Source of the DNA: Truepera sp. bin119
GTDB taxonomy: Bacteria; Deinococcota; Deinococci; Deinococcales; Trueperaceae
Length of the DNA stretch: 64,000 bases
NCBI GenBank assembly: GCA_002239005.1
Contig: MPNL01000003.1
Span: 62,001 to 126,000 of the forward strand
Reading direction: 5' to 3'
The notes beneath the pieces were generated by a model, which had not been told where the DNA came from, made no database searches, and saw nothing but the letters and a program-made list of their open reading frames with translations. Below are positions 4,196 to 53,842 of the stretch, piece by piece. The position numbers and the translations under genes are program-made. The first letter of the stretch is position 1, and every line of letters begins with the position of its first letter.

Positions 4196-4395
4196 GTGTT
4201 TGTTGCTCCTCACGCAATGATCAATCCGTCCTGGACAATATCTACAAGAATATGCGGTACTTCTGCTCACGTTACGGCCGGAAGTCTGGTGTGGCCCTCA
4301 AAATGGAGTGGCCTCACCACCACTGCAGGTCCTTACCCACTTGACGCGTAAGCAGTCAGAGCGTAAGCTCCGTAAGCGATTGTGGCGAGCCTCGA

Positions 4396-42745: not shown

Positions 42746-43714
42746 GTGATTCTGCTCGTTGCCGAACACGAGGGTTCGACCCTCCAGAAGAGTGCCGCCG
42801 AGCTCGCTGCTGTTGCCACGAGCCTCAAGTCGTGCCTCGGGGGGCGGGTGACGGGTCTGGTGGTGGGCGTGGATGCCGGGGCTGCTGCAGCAGAGCTCTC
42901 TCACTTCGTCGATTCGGTGTTGCTGGTCGAGGAGCCTAACTTGGCCGACATCCGGTCAGAGGCACTCACTACTGTCGTCTGCGAGGCTGCCGTTAGGTCG
43001 GAATCCCGCATCGTGCTCATGGCTGGTTCTAGGACTGGGCTCTCGGTCAGTCCGCGGGTGGCGGTGAGGCTGGGGGGCGCCCTCCTTGAGGAGGTCACCT
43101 CCCTAGAGGTCGATGGGGAGTCGCTATTCGCCACCCGATTGAGCTACCTCTCGAGGGTTACAGAGAGGGTGCGAGCGGACCGTGAGGTGATCGTCGTCTC
43201 CGTCAAGGCGAACATGTTCCCGCTAGGAGAACAGGGTGGGGGGGCTCCCATCGAGCAGTTCTCTGTAACCCTGGGTCCTGCCGACCTGAGGGTTGAGGTT
43301 GGCGAGAGGACAGAGGTCCAACGGGGCAGGGTGTCCCTCGAGGAGGCCGATGTCGTAGTGACAGGCGGTCGGGGGGTCGGCGGACCGGAGGGATATTCCG
43401 ACCTAGTCGAGCCGCTCGCGGACCTGCTCGGTGCGGGGGTAGGTGCGACGAGGGCGGTGGTCGACGCTGGCTGGCGGCCATACGCTGAGCAGGTGGGGCA
43501 GACCGGCAAGTCGGTCGCCCCGACCCTGTACATCGCCCTAGGGGTGTCGGGAGCGGTTCAGCACCTGTCTGGAATGAACAGGTCGAAGGTGATCGTGGCC
43601 GTCAACAGAGATGGTGACGCTCCAATCTTCAAGGTTGCGGATTATGGCATCGTCGGTGACGTGAACCGGGTGGTTCCCGCCCTCTTGGAGGCGTTCGTCT
43701 CCCTCCAGGGCTGA
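42746..43714 (+). CDS. etfA: Electron transfer flavoprotein, alpha subunit
   Basis: A 322-residue subunit. The C-terminal FAD domain is clear: VTGGRGVGGPEGYSDLVEPL, GATRAVVDAGWRPYAEQVGQ, TGKSVAPTLYIALGVSGAVQ and HLSGMNRSKVIVAVNRDGDA. The N-terminal domain is more divergent. The GTG start at 42746 is nine bases after the etfB stop. EtfAB accepts electrons from acyl-CoA dehydrogenases and passes them to the quinone pool through a separate oxidoreductase not in this window. Confidence 0.96.
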   Translation: MILLVAEHEGSTLQKSAAELAAVATSLKSCLGGRVTGLVVGVDAGAAAAELSHFVDSVLLVEEPNLADIRSEALTTVVCEAAVRSESRIVLMAGSRTGLSVSPRVAVRLGGALLEEVTSLEVDGESLFATRLSYLSRVTERVRADREVIVVSVKANMFPLGEQGGGAPIEQFSVTLGPADLRVEVGERTEVQRGRVSLEEADVVVTGGRGVGGPEGYSDLVEPLADLLGAGVGATRAVVDAGWRPYAEQVGQTGKSVAPTLYIALGVSGAVQHLSGMNRSKVIVAVNRDGDAPIFKVADYGIVGDVNRVVPALLEAFVSLQG

Positions 43715-50017: not shown

Positions 50018-51586
50018 ATGAGTCCTCGTGCCAAGAAAGAGGAGTCCCCTGTCTCCGCCACCTTGATCGATGAGTCGGTAGAGGAGCAGTCGGGGCGCAG
50101 GGCCCGAAGTCGGAGGAAAATAGAAAGTGAACTCTCCGATGCAGCCTCGTCCGACTTGCCCCTGTCAGAACTAGGAGGAAATCCCGACGCAGGAGCCTCT
50201 TCTGGCAAGGACGGGAAGGAGGAGCAGAGGGAGACCCGTCGGACCGACAGTCCCCCCAACAGAGAGCGGAGTGAACGGCGGGTGCAGAACAGGTCATCAC
50301 ATAGTAAGCGTGGCAGGTCAGGAAATCGCAAGCAGGGACTGAGCTTTAAGGATTTGCAATCCAAGATTGTTCCCGAACTCCATCTCCTGGCTAAGGAGGT
50401 AGATCTCAAAGAGTACCGGCGGATGAGTAAGGATGAGTTGGCCGTCGCGATTCTGGAGCGGAGTGCCGTCAGTGAGGGGCTCAAGCTCGTCAACGGATAC
50501 CTTGAGATCTCTTCCGACGGGTACGGCTTCCTGCAACAGTCCCTGCTGCAGAACAGTTCCCGGTCGGTCATCGTGTCTGCTGGCCTCATCAAACAGTTTA
50601 AACTCAGAACAGGCGACTTCATCCTTGGGAAGTCGCGTCGGCCGAGGGACAATGAGCGCTACGGAACTCTCATTCGGGTTGAGGCCGTCAATGGTGTGGA
50701 CCCATTTGAGGCCTCGAAACGGCCGCGTTTCGACGACCTCGTACCGACCTTCCCTGAGCAGCGGATCACCCTCGAGACTGCACAGGACGAGCTTTCCGCC
50801 CGAGTAATCGATCTGCTGGCACCGATCGGTAGGGGGCAGCGTGGTCTCATCGTGGCTCCGCCCAAAGCAGGGAAGACCACACTGCTTAAGAAGATCGCCA
50901 ACTCTGTAGTTGCCAACGAGGATGATATTAAGGTGATCGTCCTGCTGGTTGACGAGCGTCCGGAAGAGGTGACGGACTTTCGCGAATCTGTCGATGGGGT
51001 GGAGGTCATCGCCAGTACCTTCGACGAGCCTCCGGCAAACCACATTCGCGTCGCCGAGTTCGTGCACGAGCGCTCCCGCAGGATTGTTGAGGAAGGGGGT
51101 CACGTAATGGTCCTGCTCGACTCCATCACCCGGCTCGCGCGGGCGAACAACCTGGTCACCCCGCCGACTGGACGCACCCTCTCGGGGGGTCTCGACTCGA
51201 ACGCGTTGCACTGGCCTAAGCGCTTCCTAGGCGCGGCCCGGAATATCCGTGGTGGCGGCTCCCTGTCGATCCTGGCCACGGCCCTTGTGGAGACTGGGTC
51301 GCGAATGGACGACGTCATCTTTGAGGAGTTCAAGGGCACAGGGAATATGGAGCTTCATCTCTCCAGGAGGCTCGAGGAACGACGAATCTTCCCAGCTATC
51401 GATATCCTGAGATCAGGGACACGGCGGGAGGACCTTCTCCTCAAAGAGGAGACCCTCGCGAAGATGTGGCTACTTCGCAAGGTAATCAGCGATATGGACG
51501 CTGCGGAAGCCATGGAGATGCTGCTCTCGAAATTGGGGCGCACCGGCAGCAATGCGGAGTTCCTCTCAACGTTGGGGCAGGGATAG
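50018..51586 (+). CDS. rho: Transcription termination factor Rho
   Basis: A 522-residue hexameric RNA helicase. A charged, low-complexity N-terminal extension of about 110 residues comes first. Then the Rho N-domain (LSFKDLQSKIVPELHLLAKE), the RNA-binding cold-shock-like fold (VNGYLEISSDGYGFLQQ) and the RecA-type motor: Walker A IVAPPKAGKTTLLKKIA, Walker B region HVMVLLDSITRLARANN, and the R-loop GGGSLSILATALVETGSRMD, ending with FEEFKGTGNMELHLSRRLEE. I chose ATG 50018, with GAAGGGAG upstream, over the in-frame TTG at 50000. The long leader may allow autoregulation, as in other bacteria. Confidence 0.97.
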   Translation: MSPRAKKEESPVSATLIDESVEEQSGRRARSRRKIESELSDAASSDLPLSELGGNPDAGASSGKDGKEEQRETRRTDSPPNRERSERRVQNRSSHSKRGRSGNRKQGLSFKDLQSKIVPELHLLAKEVDLKEYRRMSKDELAVAILERSAVSEGLKLVNGYLEISSDGYGFLQQSLLQNSSRSVIVSAGLIKQFKLRTGDFILGKSRRPRDNERYGTLIRVEAVNGVDPFEASKRPRFDDLVPTFPEQRITLETAQDELSARVIDLLAPIGRGQRGLIVAPPKAGKTTLLKKIANSVVANEDDIKVIVLLVDERPEEVTDFRESVDGVEVIASTFDEPPANHIRVAEFVHERSRRIVEEGGHVMVLLDSITRLARANNLVTPPTGRTLSGGLDSNALHWPKRFLGAARNIRGGGSLSILATALVETGSRMDDVIFEEFKGTGNMELHLSRRLEERRIFPAIDILRSGTRREDLLLKEETLAKMWLLRKVISDMDAAEAMEMLLSKLGRTGSNAEFLSTLGQG

Positions 51587-52172
51587 CCGGAAAGCCGAAC
51601 GCCTGCCTTGTTGCTATACTCACCGAGTTCGGAGGGTGAGGATCTTTCTAGGGGTACGCTAAGAAACCACGAGTGGTTCGCCGCTAGCGCTGCCAAGCGG
51701 AGATGTCCTTCATACTCACCGCGACCACCACTACTGTCGCGGTTGTTGGGAACATTCTGCCAGCGCTGACTCACACAAGATTCACTGAATTGGCGGTTGC
51801 GGTGAGTATTTACGGCACCGGCGGCACAGAGCGATTCGCCTTGGGGGCCTTTGCGATGAACGGTTGTGCCGAGTGGAGGGTGCGCTCGCTTGTCTAGGCG
51901 GATATCTACTCCTGACTTGAGGTGGTTAATGTCGAGCTGAAGGTTGAGGGTGTAGAGGCTGTGCCCACAGCGGGTCGAGGTTAACGTCGATAGACTGGGT
52001 CAGGCTGGGGTATTCGTTATACCAGGATCAGCAAGGGGCTTATTTGAGGCTTTTCCCTATTATGAGGGCCACATCAGACTTCCGTGTTCGCTCGGTCCGT
52101 TACCGGCGAAAGCTCCAGAAGTCTTCAAGTCCTGCAGGTTGTGACACCCTGCATCTCTCGTTTCCCCAATCA
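51587..52172. other. 585-bp spacer after rho with repeated ATACTCACCG arms
   Basis: No gene is recognisable. ATACTCACCG occurs at 51617-51626 and 51712-51721 and inverted at 51800-51809. The second copy can pair either with GTCGCGGT (51736-51743, 8-bp stem) or with the far arm (51795-51809, 14 of 15 pairs); these pairings exclude each other. A hairpin CTCACC/GGTGAG (51620-51641) could end the rho transcript. Confidence 0.5.
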
Positions 52173-52229
52173 TTGACCTGACGCTTTTTCATTCGATATA
52201 CTTGGCTCAGACTTCGGAATGATTCCGAA
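52173..52229 (+). promoter_or_regulatory. Promoter and palindromic operator of the Rrf2 gene
   Basis: TTGACC (52173-52178), 18 bases, TATACT (52197-52202). Right after the predicted start of transcription comes TTCGGAATGATTCCGAA (52213-52229), a perfect 8-1-8 palindrome. Such a site just downstream of the promoter fits self-repression by the dimeric Rrf2 protein encoded next. Confidence 0.75.
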
Positions 52230-52256
52230 ATCTAATGGTGTTGTGTGGAGAGTGCC

Positions 52257-52706
52257 ATGTGGATTTCGACTCGAGCCCAGTACGGAATGCGGGCCCTAGT
52301 AGAGGTTGCCCTCAGAGGTGACCGGCCGACTAGCCTCAAGATGGTTGCCGAGCGACAGGGTCTCAGCCAGCAGTATCTCGAGCAGATCTTCGCTAGGCTT
52401 CGTCGTGGAGGTCTCGTCGAATCGGTCCGTGGCGCTCACGGCGGCTACCGGATAGCCCATTCGCCCTCCTCCATCGATGCTCTGGAGATTGTCGAGTTGC
52501 TCGAGGGCAGCCTCGTACCTGTCGTATGTATCGAGGATGAGGAGGCCTGCGACCGTGTTGGGAATTGTGCAACTGAGGGTTTGTGGCGGCGGGTTGACGC
52601 CGCCGTGCGCTCGGTACTCTCTGGCACCACACTGGCCGACCTTATGAACGACAGTACACTTGTCCAACTTGGACCTTTGCCTGCGCAGTTTGCTGAGTCA
52701 TCCTGA
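52257..52706 (+). CDS. Rrf2-family transcriptional regulator, IscR-like
   Basis: About 149 residues. The winged helix domain is typical of Rrf2: MWISTRAQYGMRALVEVALR, VAERQGLSQQYLEQIFARLR and VRGAHGGYRIAHSPSSI. Three Cys (VVCIEDEEACDRVGNC; spacing C-x6-C-x5-C) match the IscR iron-sulfur ligand pattern. The next gene encodes a cysteine desulfurase, so the pair resembles an iron-sulfur-controlled sulfur-mobilising unit (iscR-iscS). I use the ATG at 52257; the frame opens 12 bases earlier. The presence of a cluster is inference from the Cys pattern. Confidence 0.9.
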   Translation: MWISTRAQYGMRALVEVALRGDRPTSLKMVAERQGLSQQYLEQIFARLRRGGLVESVRGAHGGYRIAHSPSSIDALEIVELLEGSLVPVVCIEDEEACDRVGNCATEGLWRRVDAAVRSVLSGTTLADLMNDSTLVQLGPLPAQFAESS

Positions 52707-52712
52707 TCGGAG

Positions 52713-53842
52713 ATGGTATCTACCTGGATTATGCGGCAACCACGCCGCTTCATCCTCTTGTTCTTGAGGCCATGTTGCCTCACCTGTCAGGGTCGTTCGC
52801 GAACGCCGCGTCGATCCACCGTGCTGGACAGCGTTCCAGGAGGGCGGTGGAGGAGGCCAGAGAGGCTGTCGCTCACGCTATAGGTGCGACTGGGGGACAG
52901 GTGATCTTCACTTCGGGGGCGACGGAGGCGGATAACCTTGCCCTCCGGGCTGTGATGGCGACGAAATCCAGAGGTCACCTGGTAACGAGTGTTCTGGAAC
53001 ACCCGGCGGTGCTCGAGACCGCACGATTCCTCGAGCGAACGGGTGTGGAGGTCAGCTATATCGAACCGGATAGGTCGGGAGCCATCACGGCCCGGAGCGT
53101 GCGCGGTGCCTTACGCCCGGAGACAGCGCTGGTGGCCCTGATGCAGGTGAACAATGAAACGGGCATTGTCACAGATGTGTCCGCCGTTTCCGAACTTACC
53201 CGAGAGGCGGGTGTGCTCCTCTTCTGCGACGCTGTGCAGGGCTTCGGCTCCGTTCCCGTCTCTGTGGTGGATCTAGGTGCAGATCTGCTCAGCCTCTCGG
53301 GGCACAAGGTGTACGGCCCGAAAGGTGTCGGTACCCTCTACCTCCGCGACGGGCTCGACCTCGGACCCATCCTATACGGCGGGGGTCAGGAGCGCGGTCT
53401 CCGACCGGGTACTCTCAATACCGCAGCGATCGTGGGCATGGGCAGAGCGGCCGAACTGGCGAGTGCCAACCTGATGAGTGAGCCTGGACGCCTCGTCAGG
53501 TTGCGGGACAGGTTTGAAAGGGCGATCGTGGAGGGGATTCCCGCCTTGGTCATCGGCGCAGATGCTGAGAGGGGGCCGAGACACTCCTGCATTCACTTCC
53601 CAGGGGTAGATGGACAGGCCTTCCTCATGAACCTTGATCTTGAGGGTGTGATGGCCAGCCTCGGATCGGCCTGCTCCGCTGGGAGTCCAGGGCCGAGTCA
53701 CGTCCTTACAGCGATGGGCCTCACTGAGGAGGAGGCCCGGTCCAGCGTACGCTTCTCGTTCGGCAGCGACCTCACCGCAGCCGACATCGATCTCGCAGCT
53801 GAGCGCGTGCTCCGGGCTGCGAGGAGGTCTTTGGCCGATTAG
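52713..53842 (+). CDS. Cysteine desulfurase (NifS/IscS type), start region disturbed
   Basis: A PLP enzyme that takes sulfur from cysteine for iron-sulfur clusters and tRNA thiolation. [19 protein letters not shown] (from 52718), [33 protein letters not shown] (PLP Lys) and [16 protein letters not shown] (active-site Cys) are present. The conserved N-terminus has no in-frame ATG, GTG or TTG: the frame opens only at 52697. The ATG at 52713, right after a GATCGGAG site, is one frame off (ATGGTATCTAC where ATGGTNATCTAC would fit), suggesting a missing base. The next in-frame ATG (52772) would remove the conserved start. The gene follows the Rrf2 regulator directly and converges with clpX, sharing four bases. 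Confidence 0.88.

Follow-up and report, generated by a model that had tools for sequence, protein, structure and literature searches.

A long-loop hairpin downstream of rho in Truepera sp. bin119 as a candidate 3' structure of the rho message

Results

Genes and repeated arms of the rho-rrf2 spacer

The DNA analysed here is a stretch of 64,000 nucleotides (hereafter the window) from Truepera sp. bin119, whose genome of 3.2 Mb is assembled in 91 contigs. Within it, rho is followed by a gene for an Rrf2-family regulator (rrf2), and 3' of rrf2 lies an aminotransferase class-V gene that is cysteine desulfurase-like (Table 1). The spacer separating rho from rrf2 spans 670 bases, with a GC content of 54% as compared to 60% over the 64-kb window. 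Searching genome contigs for Rho returned 31 loci, nearly all of them from Trueperaceae or Thermaceae and two from distant Firmicutes, in a contig collection from which the window's own genome was possibly absent.

Three sites of ATACTCACCG had been reported after rho in the preliminary description; those at 51712 on the plus strand and 51800 on the minus strand are placed correctly, and the first starts at 51616 instead of 51617. Copies 2 and 3 belong to the opposite arms of a hairpin, here called the main hairpin (51712-51809), which starts 125 bases 3' of rho on the same strand. Its far stem (51712-51726 with 51795-51809) is made of 14 Watson-Crick pairs and one G-U pair, matching the 14 of 15 positions given earlier; extended without gaps, 17 of 19 positions are paired (51712-51730 with 51791-51809) around a loop of 60 bases, and over a longer ungapped stretch 81% of 26 positions are paired. 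The near stem (51718-51725 with 51736-51743) pairs at all eight of its eight positions by Watson-Crick rules and shares 51718-51725 with the far stem, so that the two are on paper mutually exclusive, both points as first described. The partner that copy 1 has close by, GGUGAG facing CUCACC, is a feature absent from that description. From the consensus, we take TGCTATACT at 51612-51620 to resemble an extended -10 promoter element. The next gene had been placed about 450 bases away, which agrees with a far arm ending at 51809 and an rrf2 start at 52257. A short reading frame running across the hairpin (51703-51897) matched no protein family.

Table 1. Features of the rho-rrf2 region, in window coordinates.
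Feature	Position	Strand	Remarks
rho	50018..51586	+	Rho_N, Rho_RNA_bind and ATP-synt_ab domains
Copy 1 of ATACTCACCG	51616..51625	+	exact match; overlaps TGCTATACT (51612-51620)
GGUGAG, near partner of copy 1	51635..51640	+	6 pairs with CUCACC at 51619-51624
Arm of the rival near-stem fold	51686..51695	+	90% complementary to 51758-51767
Main hairpin, 5' arm	51712..51730	+	first 10 bases are copy 2 (51712-51721)
Near arm	51736..51743	+	8 pairs with 51718-51725; incompatible with the far stem
Main hairpin, far (3') arm	51791..51809	+	contains copy 3, minus strand, 51800-51809
Relic of IS3-type right end	52041..52085	+	in the rho-rrf2 spacer, 230 bases past the far arm
Promoter-like site of rrf2	52173..52202	+	TTGACC, 18, TATACT
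Palindrome AGACTTCGGAATGATTCCGAAATCT, near-perfect	52209..52233		directly after the rrf2 -10-like box
rrf2, Rrf2-family regulator gene	52257..52706	+	domain match

Transcription signals between rho and rrf2

The site preceding rrf2 is the sole promoter-like match in 51400-52350, where 0.6 would be expected by chance. Among 23 relatives, 7 also have a palindrome related to AGACTTCGGAATGATTCCGAAATCT 5' of rrf2 at a level that exceeds all 200 shuffles of the final 110 bases, and one further relative has it at a level reached by 1 of 200. Because of this recurrence, AGACTTCGGAATGATTCCGAAATCT is likely to be the Rrf2 operator, as predicted from sequence. The predicted promoter and the palindrome, together spanning 52173-52233, would leave about 400 bases between the arms and the probable transcription start of rrf2 downstream of them; since rrf2 appears to be equipped with signals of its own, the position of the arms is not that of an rrf2 leader and the rho transcript should end in the gap. 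No terminator-like site, that is, a compact GC-rich hairpin with a U-run, was found in 51400-52350, and the flanks of the main hairpin contain no U-run after it; on these two grounds the main hairpin was rejected as an intrinsic terminator.

Stability of the main hairpin and its competing stems

Folding of 51706-51815 gave z-scores of -3.96 on the plus strand and -4.55 on the minus strand, which none of 200 shuffles reached in either case, and a structure following the gene and stabler than random is what characterizes a protective 3' UTR hairpin. The longer segment 51587-51860 is not unusual as a whole (z -0.86; 39 of 200 shuffles). When 50500-53000 was scanned in 120-base windows, the lowest z, -4.46, fell on the window starting at 51700, a result that we count in favor of a 3' UTR structure. 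We count against such a 3' UTR structure that the minus strand folds no less stably than the plus strand; this is expected, because any DNA palindrome behaves in this way.

Taken alone, 51706-51815 prefers the far-stem hairpin over the near stem by 10.3 kcal/mol, the near stem having a probability of 2e-8. In the 274-base context of 51587-51860, the disadvantage of the best near-stem fold relative to the best far-stem fold shrinks to only 1.3 kcal/mol, which counts against a 3' UTR role, and the penalty is again 1.3 kcal/mol in 51587-52208; this difference is smaller than folding energies can resolve. In the ensemble of 51587-51860, the outer far stem has a share of 0.66 and the near stem one of 0.19; the shares of the far and near stems in 51587-52208 are 0.69 and 0.13. 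The rival fold of 51587-51860 includes a helix of 51686-51695 with 51758-51767, and in it copy 1 retains its near partner, which excludes capture of the far arm by copy 1 as the cause of the near-stem share. Energy gaps of 1.3 kcal/mol or less are ordinary, being found in 72 of 200 shuffles; a 15-bp helix of any kind arose in 3 of 200, and the two together in none of 200, a combination that may speak, mildly, for a picture of rival stems. Across seven simulated transcript end points, the near stem is present in the folds of RNAs that end at or before 51805, and the far stem in the folds of RNAs that end at or after 51812 (51812 and 51830), an order that is expected because the hairpin encloses a smaller hairpin.

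Content of the gap in relatives

The rho-rrf2 gap was compared in 24 genomes of a single family, presumably the Trueperaceae (Deinococcota), that of the window included; they were chosen because a single retrieved stretch carried rho as well as rrf2. An ORF with an M23-type motif occupies the gap in 14 of the 23 relatives, and the two of these 14 that were tested by Pfam are both Peptidase_M23. One more M23-type motif, with YGWR, lies in the gap of L019, ORFs with LysM-like starts in those of L027 and L028, and a different ORF that has no Pfam match in that of L039; five of the 23 have short gaps of 75-207 bases. Altogether, an M23-type or LysM ORF separates rho from rrf2 in 17 of 23 relatives (within L006-L040) and is absent there in the window's genome, where M23-like genes are present elsewhere. 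An M23 peptidase pseudogene in the spacer was rejected: its score of 34.7 was reached by 18 of 100 shuffles (mean 30.8, sd 3.7), 188 was the score of a control gene with 40% of its positions randomised, and tblastn matches of M23 to the spacer were short and not collinear. A search of the family's 38 other genomes at E <= 0.001 gave no match to the spacer itself, and the absence of the hairpin from these 38 counts against a 3' UTR function. Of the 39 genomes in this search, 26 have little contamination and a completeness of 90% or more.

The core of the IS3-type relic occurs at six places in the genome. One copy (L095) adjoins two transposase frames, both uninterrupted, in which HTH_Tnp_1, HTH_21 and rve domains occur; from these Pfam domains we presume the element to be of IS3 type. 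Another (L093) is without a transposase frame of at least 120 aa, and a further right-end relic lies at 4279-4304 on the minus strand of the window. The end relic shares the spacer with the arms, but the arms lie outside the element's end and only the 7-base ACTCACC is common to them and to the element's left end. A decayed IS3 interior in the spacer was also rejected, with a score of 41 against 39.8 (sd 4.8) for shuffles. Given the variable gap content in relatives, the unmatched spacer and the IS3-type relic, the spacer looks like replaced, partly invaded DNA.

Known classes of RNA and mobile elements

Neither the window nor 51400-52300 gave a relevant match to Rfam at gathering and E-value thresholds, in agreement with the earlier remark that no known riboswitch class fits; two weak matches were to eukaryotic families and under the cut-offs. 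Like 6S RNA, 51666-51836 is able to adopt an extended rod-like fold, but the 6S RNA model (RF00013) had no match at 51400-52300, nor, under stricter filters, in 41 genomes including the window's own, with 5 of 14 control genomes matched. A MITE was rejected since the element has one full match in its own genome and the arms form no repeat family: exact copies of the 10-mer ATACTCACCG occur four times elsewhere in the genome, as do those of a reversed control pattern, and a loose gapped palindrome occurs at three other places versus two for its control. A plasmid search gave no match, and a phage search gave six records with matches of 21-24 bases at E 0.8, which we take as chance. Among the open-access literature matches listed, no title concerned the rho-rrf2 spacer.

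Interpretation of the main hairpin

Arms, stems, folding energies, the missing U-tract, the absence from searched relatives and the separate rrf2 promoter-like site are all computed results. Any function of the structure would, by analogy, most simply be that of a 3' element of the rho message that lacks a U-tract. The available text of one study describes, in E. coli operons, structures that have no U-tract and withstand 3'-5' exonucleases (PMC5927463), and as presented there, 3' structures of the malE-malF type are, like the main hairpin, stable, on the same strand as the gene, located after the coding sequence and devoid of a U-tract; the main hairpin, a predicted structure, differs by its 60-base loop. 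We thus propose, tentatively and with a probability of roughly 0.43, that the main hairpin is a lineage-specific structure of the rho 3' UTR protecting or marking the mRNA 3' end. RNA polymerase would transcribe beyond the rho stop codon, the near stem arising first and yielding once the far arm has been transcribed, and the long hairpin would then mark or protect the 3' end of the rho mRNA, an end presumably left further downstream by termination, probably Rho-dependent, or by processing. Transcription of the hairpin, the way in which transcription ends and the protective role are what we infer here; copy 1 would play no part in the protective hairpin. Should this 3' UTR assignment hold, a rho message in Deinococcota would end at a structure without a U-tract. 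A point against it is loop size, which is 60 bases in the main hairpin versus 3-11 in the five strong repeats of compact form that the window contains.

It is nearly as likely that the spacer is a functionless relic, having replaced earlier rho-rrf2 DNA and been hit by insertion, with arms that arose by chance or are the remains of an inserted palindrome. The gap content that varies among the 24 genomes, the lack of a spacer match in the 38 others and the IS3-type end within the spacer are consistent with such a neutral origin, and so is the incidence of comparable repeats in random sequence: when the whole 64 kb was shuffled, at least one 10-mer triple within 244 bases appeared in 5 of 160 shuffles (none of 40 in a smaller earlier run), and an inverted repeat of equal score with a loop of 20-120 bases in 29 of 160, the latter rate also counting against a 3' UTR structure. 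On the other side, 20,000 dinucleotide shuffles of 51587-51830 yielded no such triple, the hairpin clearly exceeds its shuffles and the arms belong to no genome repeat family. The triple is therefore very improbable locally and modestly improbable over 64 kb. The lesson is mainly a cautionary one, in that repeated arms that are rare locally become much less striking across a 64-kb reading, in a spacer that is not kept in the family.

The window does contain two 10-mer triples, that of the arms after rho and one starting at 2389, and two long-loop repeats of equal score, at 51712 and 43154. The second triple, AAGGTCGAGG, lies at 2387-2509 with starts at 2389, 2406 and 2500 in either orientation, and two of its copies make a 13-bp hairpin. 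The second repeat, AGGGTTACAGAGA, is an exact inverted repeat of 13 bases at 43154-43272 with a loop of 93 bases.

An RNA switch, in which a signal would toggle between the far stem and the near stem with its 51686-51695/51758-51767 helix and thereby alter how far the rho message is read through, how it is processed or how stable it is, appears unlikely. Its appeal comes from the exclusive stems 1.3 kcal/mol apart in 51587-51860, accompanied by the 15-bp helix as in none of the 200 shuffles, and from the ensemble shares of the far and near stems, 0.66 and 0.19; the gap, however, is ordinary when taken alone and falls inside the error of folding energies. The preliminary description had seen switching pairs typical of attenuators or structured RNAs: the exclusive stems stand, and the regulation is unsupported, with neither a leader position, a terminator, an Rfam class nor a homologue in the 38 genomes. 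By position, a riboswitch or attenuator is disfavored because the arms follow rho and the predicted rrf2 promoter lies downstream of them; by output, because neither state resembles a terminator, with no terminator-like site and no U-run, or the block of a ribosome site, the short frame across the hairpin matching no protein family. Rho autoregulation by attenuation acts in the rho 5' leader according to the available text of PMC6582626, on the same gene, but the main hairpin sits after the rho stop codon. Were a switch nevertheless at work, it would imply regulation of rho from the 3' side.

We consider it just as improbable that the arms act at the DNA level, as binding sites of a regulator or as promoter elements, with copy 1 providing an extended -10 after rho. 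Copy 1 lies in part within TGCTATACT and TATACTC-like words are found 5' of rrf2 in several relatives, but the promoter scan found no -35-like match at copy 1, TG is missing from copies 2 and 3, the genome shows no excess of the 10-mer, and TATACTC, with 5 occurrences in the window versus 2.35 expected (10 of 100 shuffles), has no clear excess there. Least probable of all would be a genus-specific RNA of the rho 3' UTR, perhaps initiated from the extended -10 of copy 1, that toggles between the folds and tunes rho mRNA stability or read-through to rrf2. Of these readings, the likeliest is an ordinary hairpin, specific to the lineage, with which the rho message would end, rather than a demonstrated RNA switch.

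Elsewhere in the spacer, a second low folding z, -2.95, was obtained for 51900-52019 in a 60-shuffle scan.
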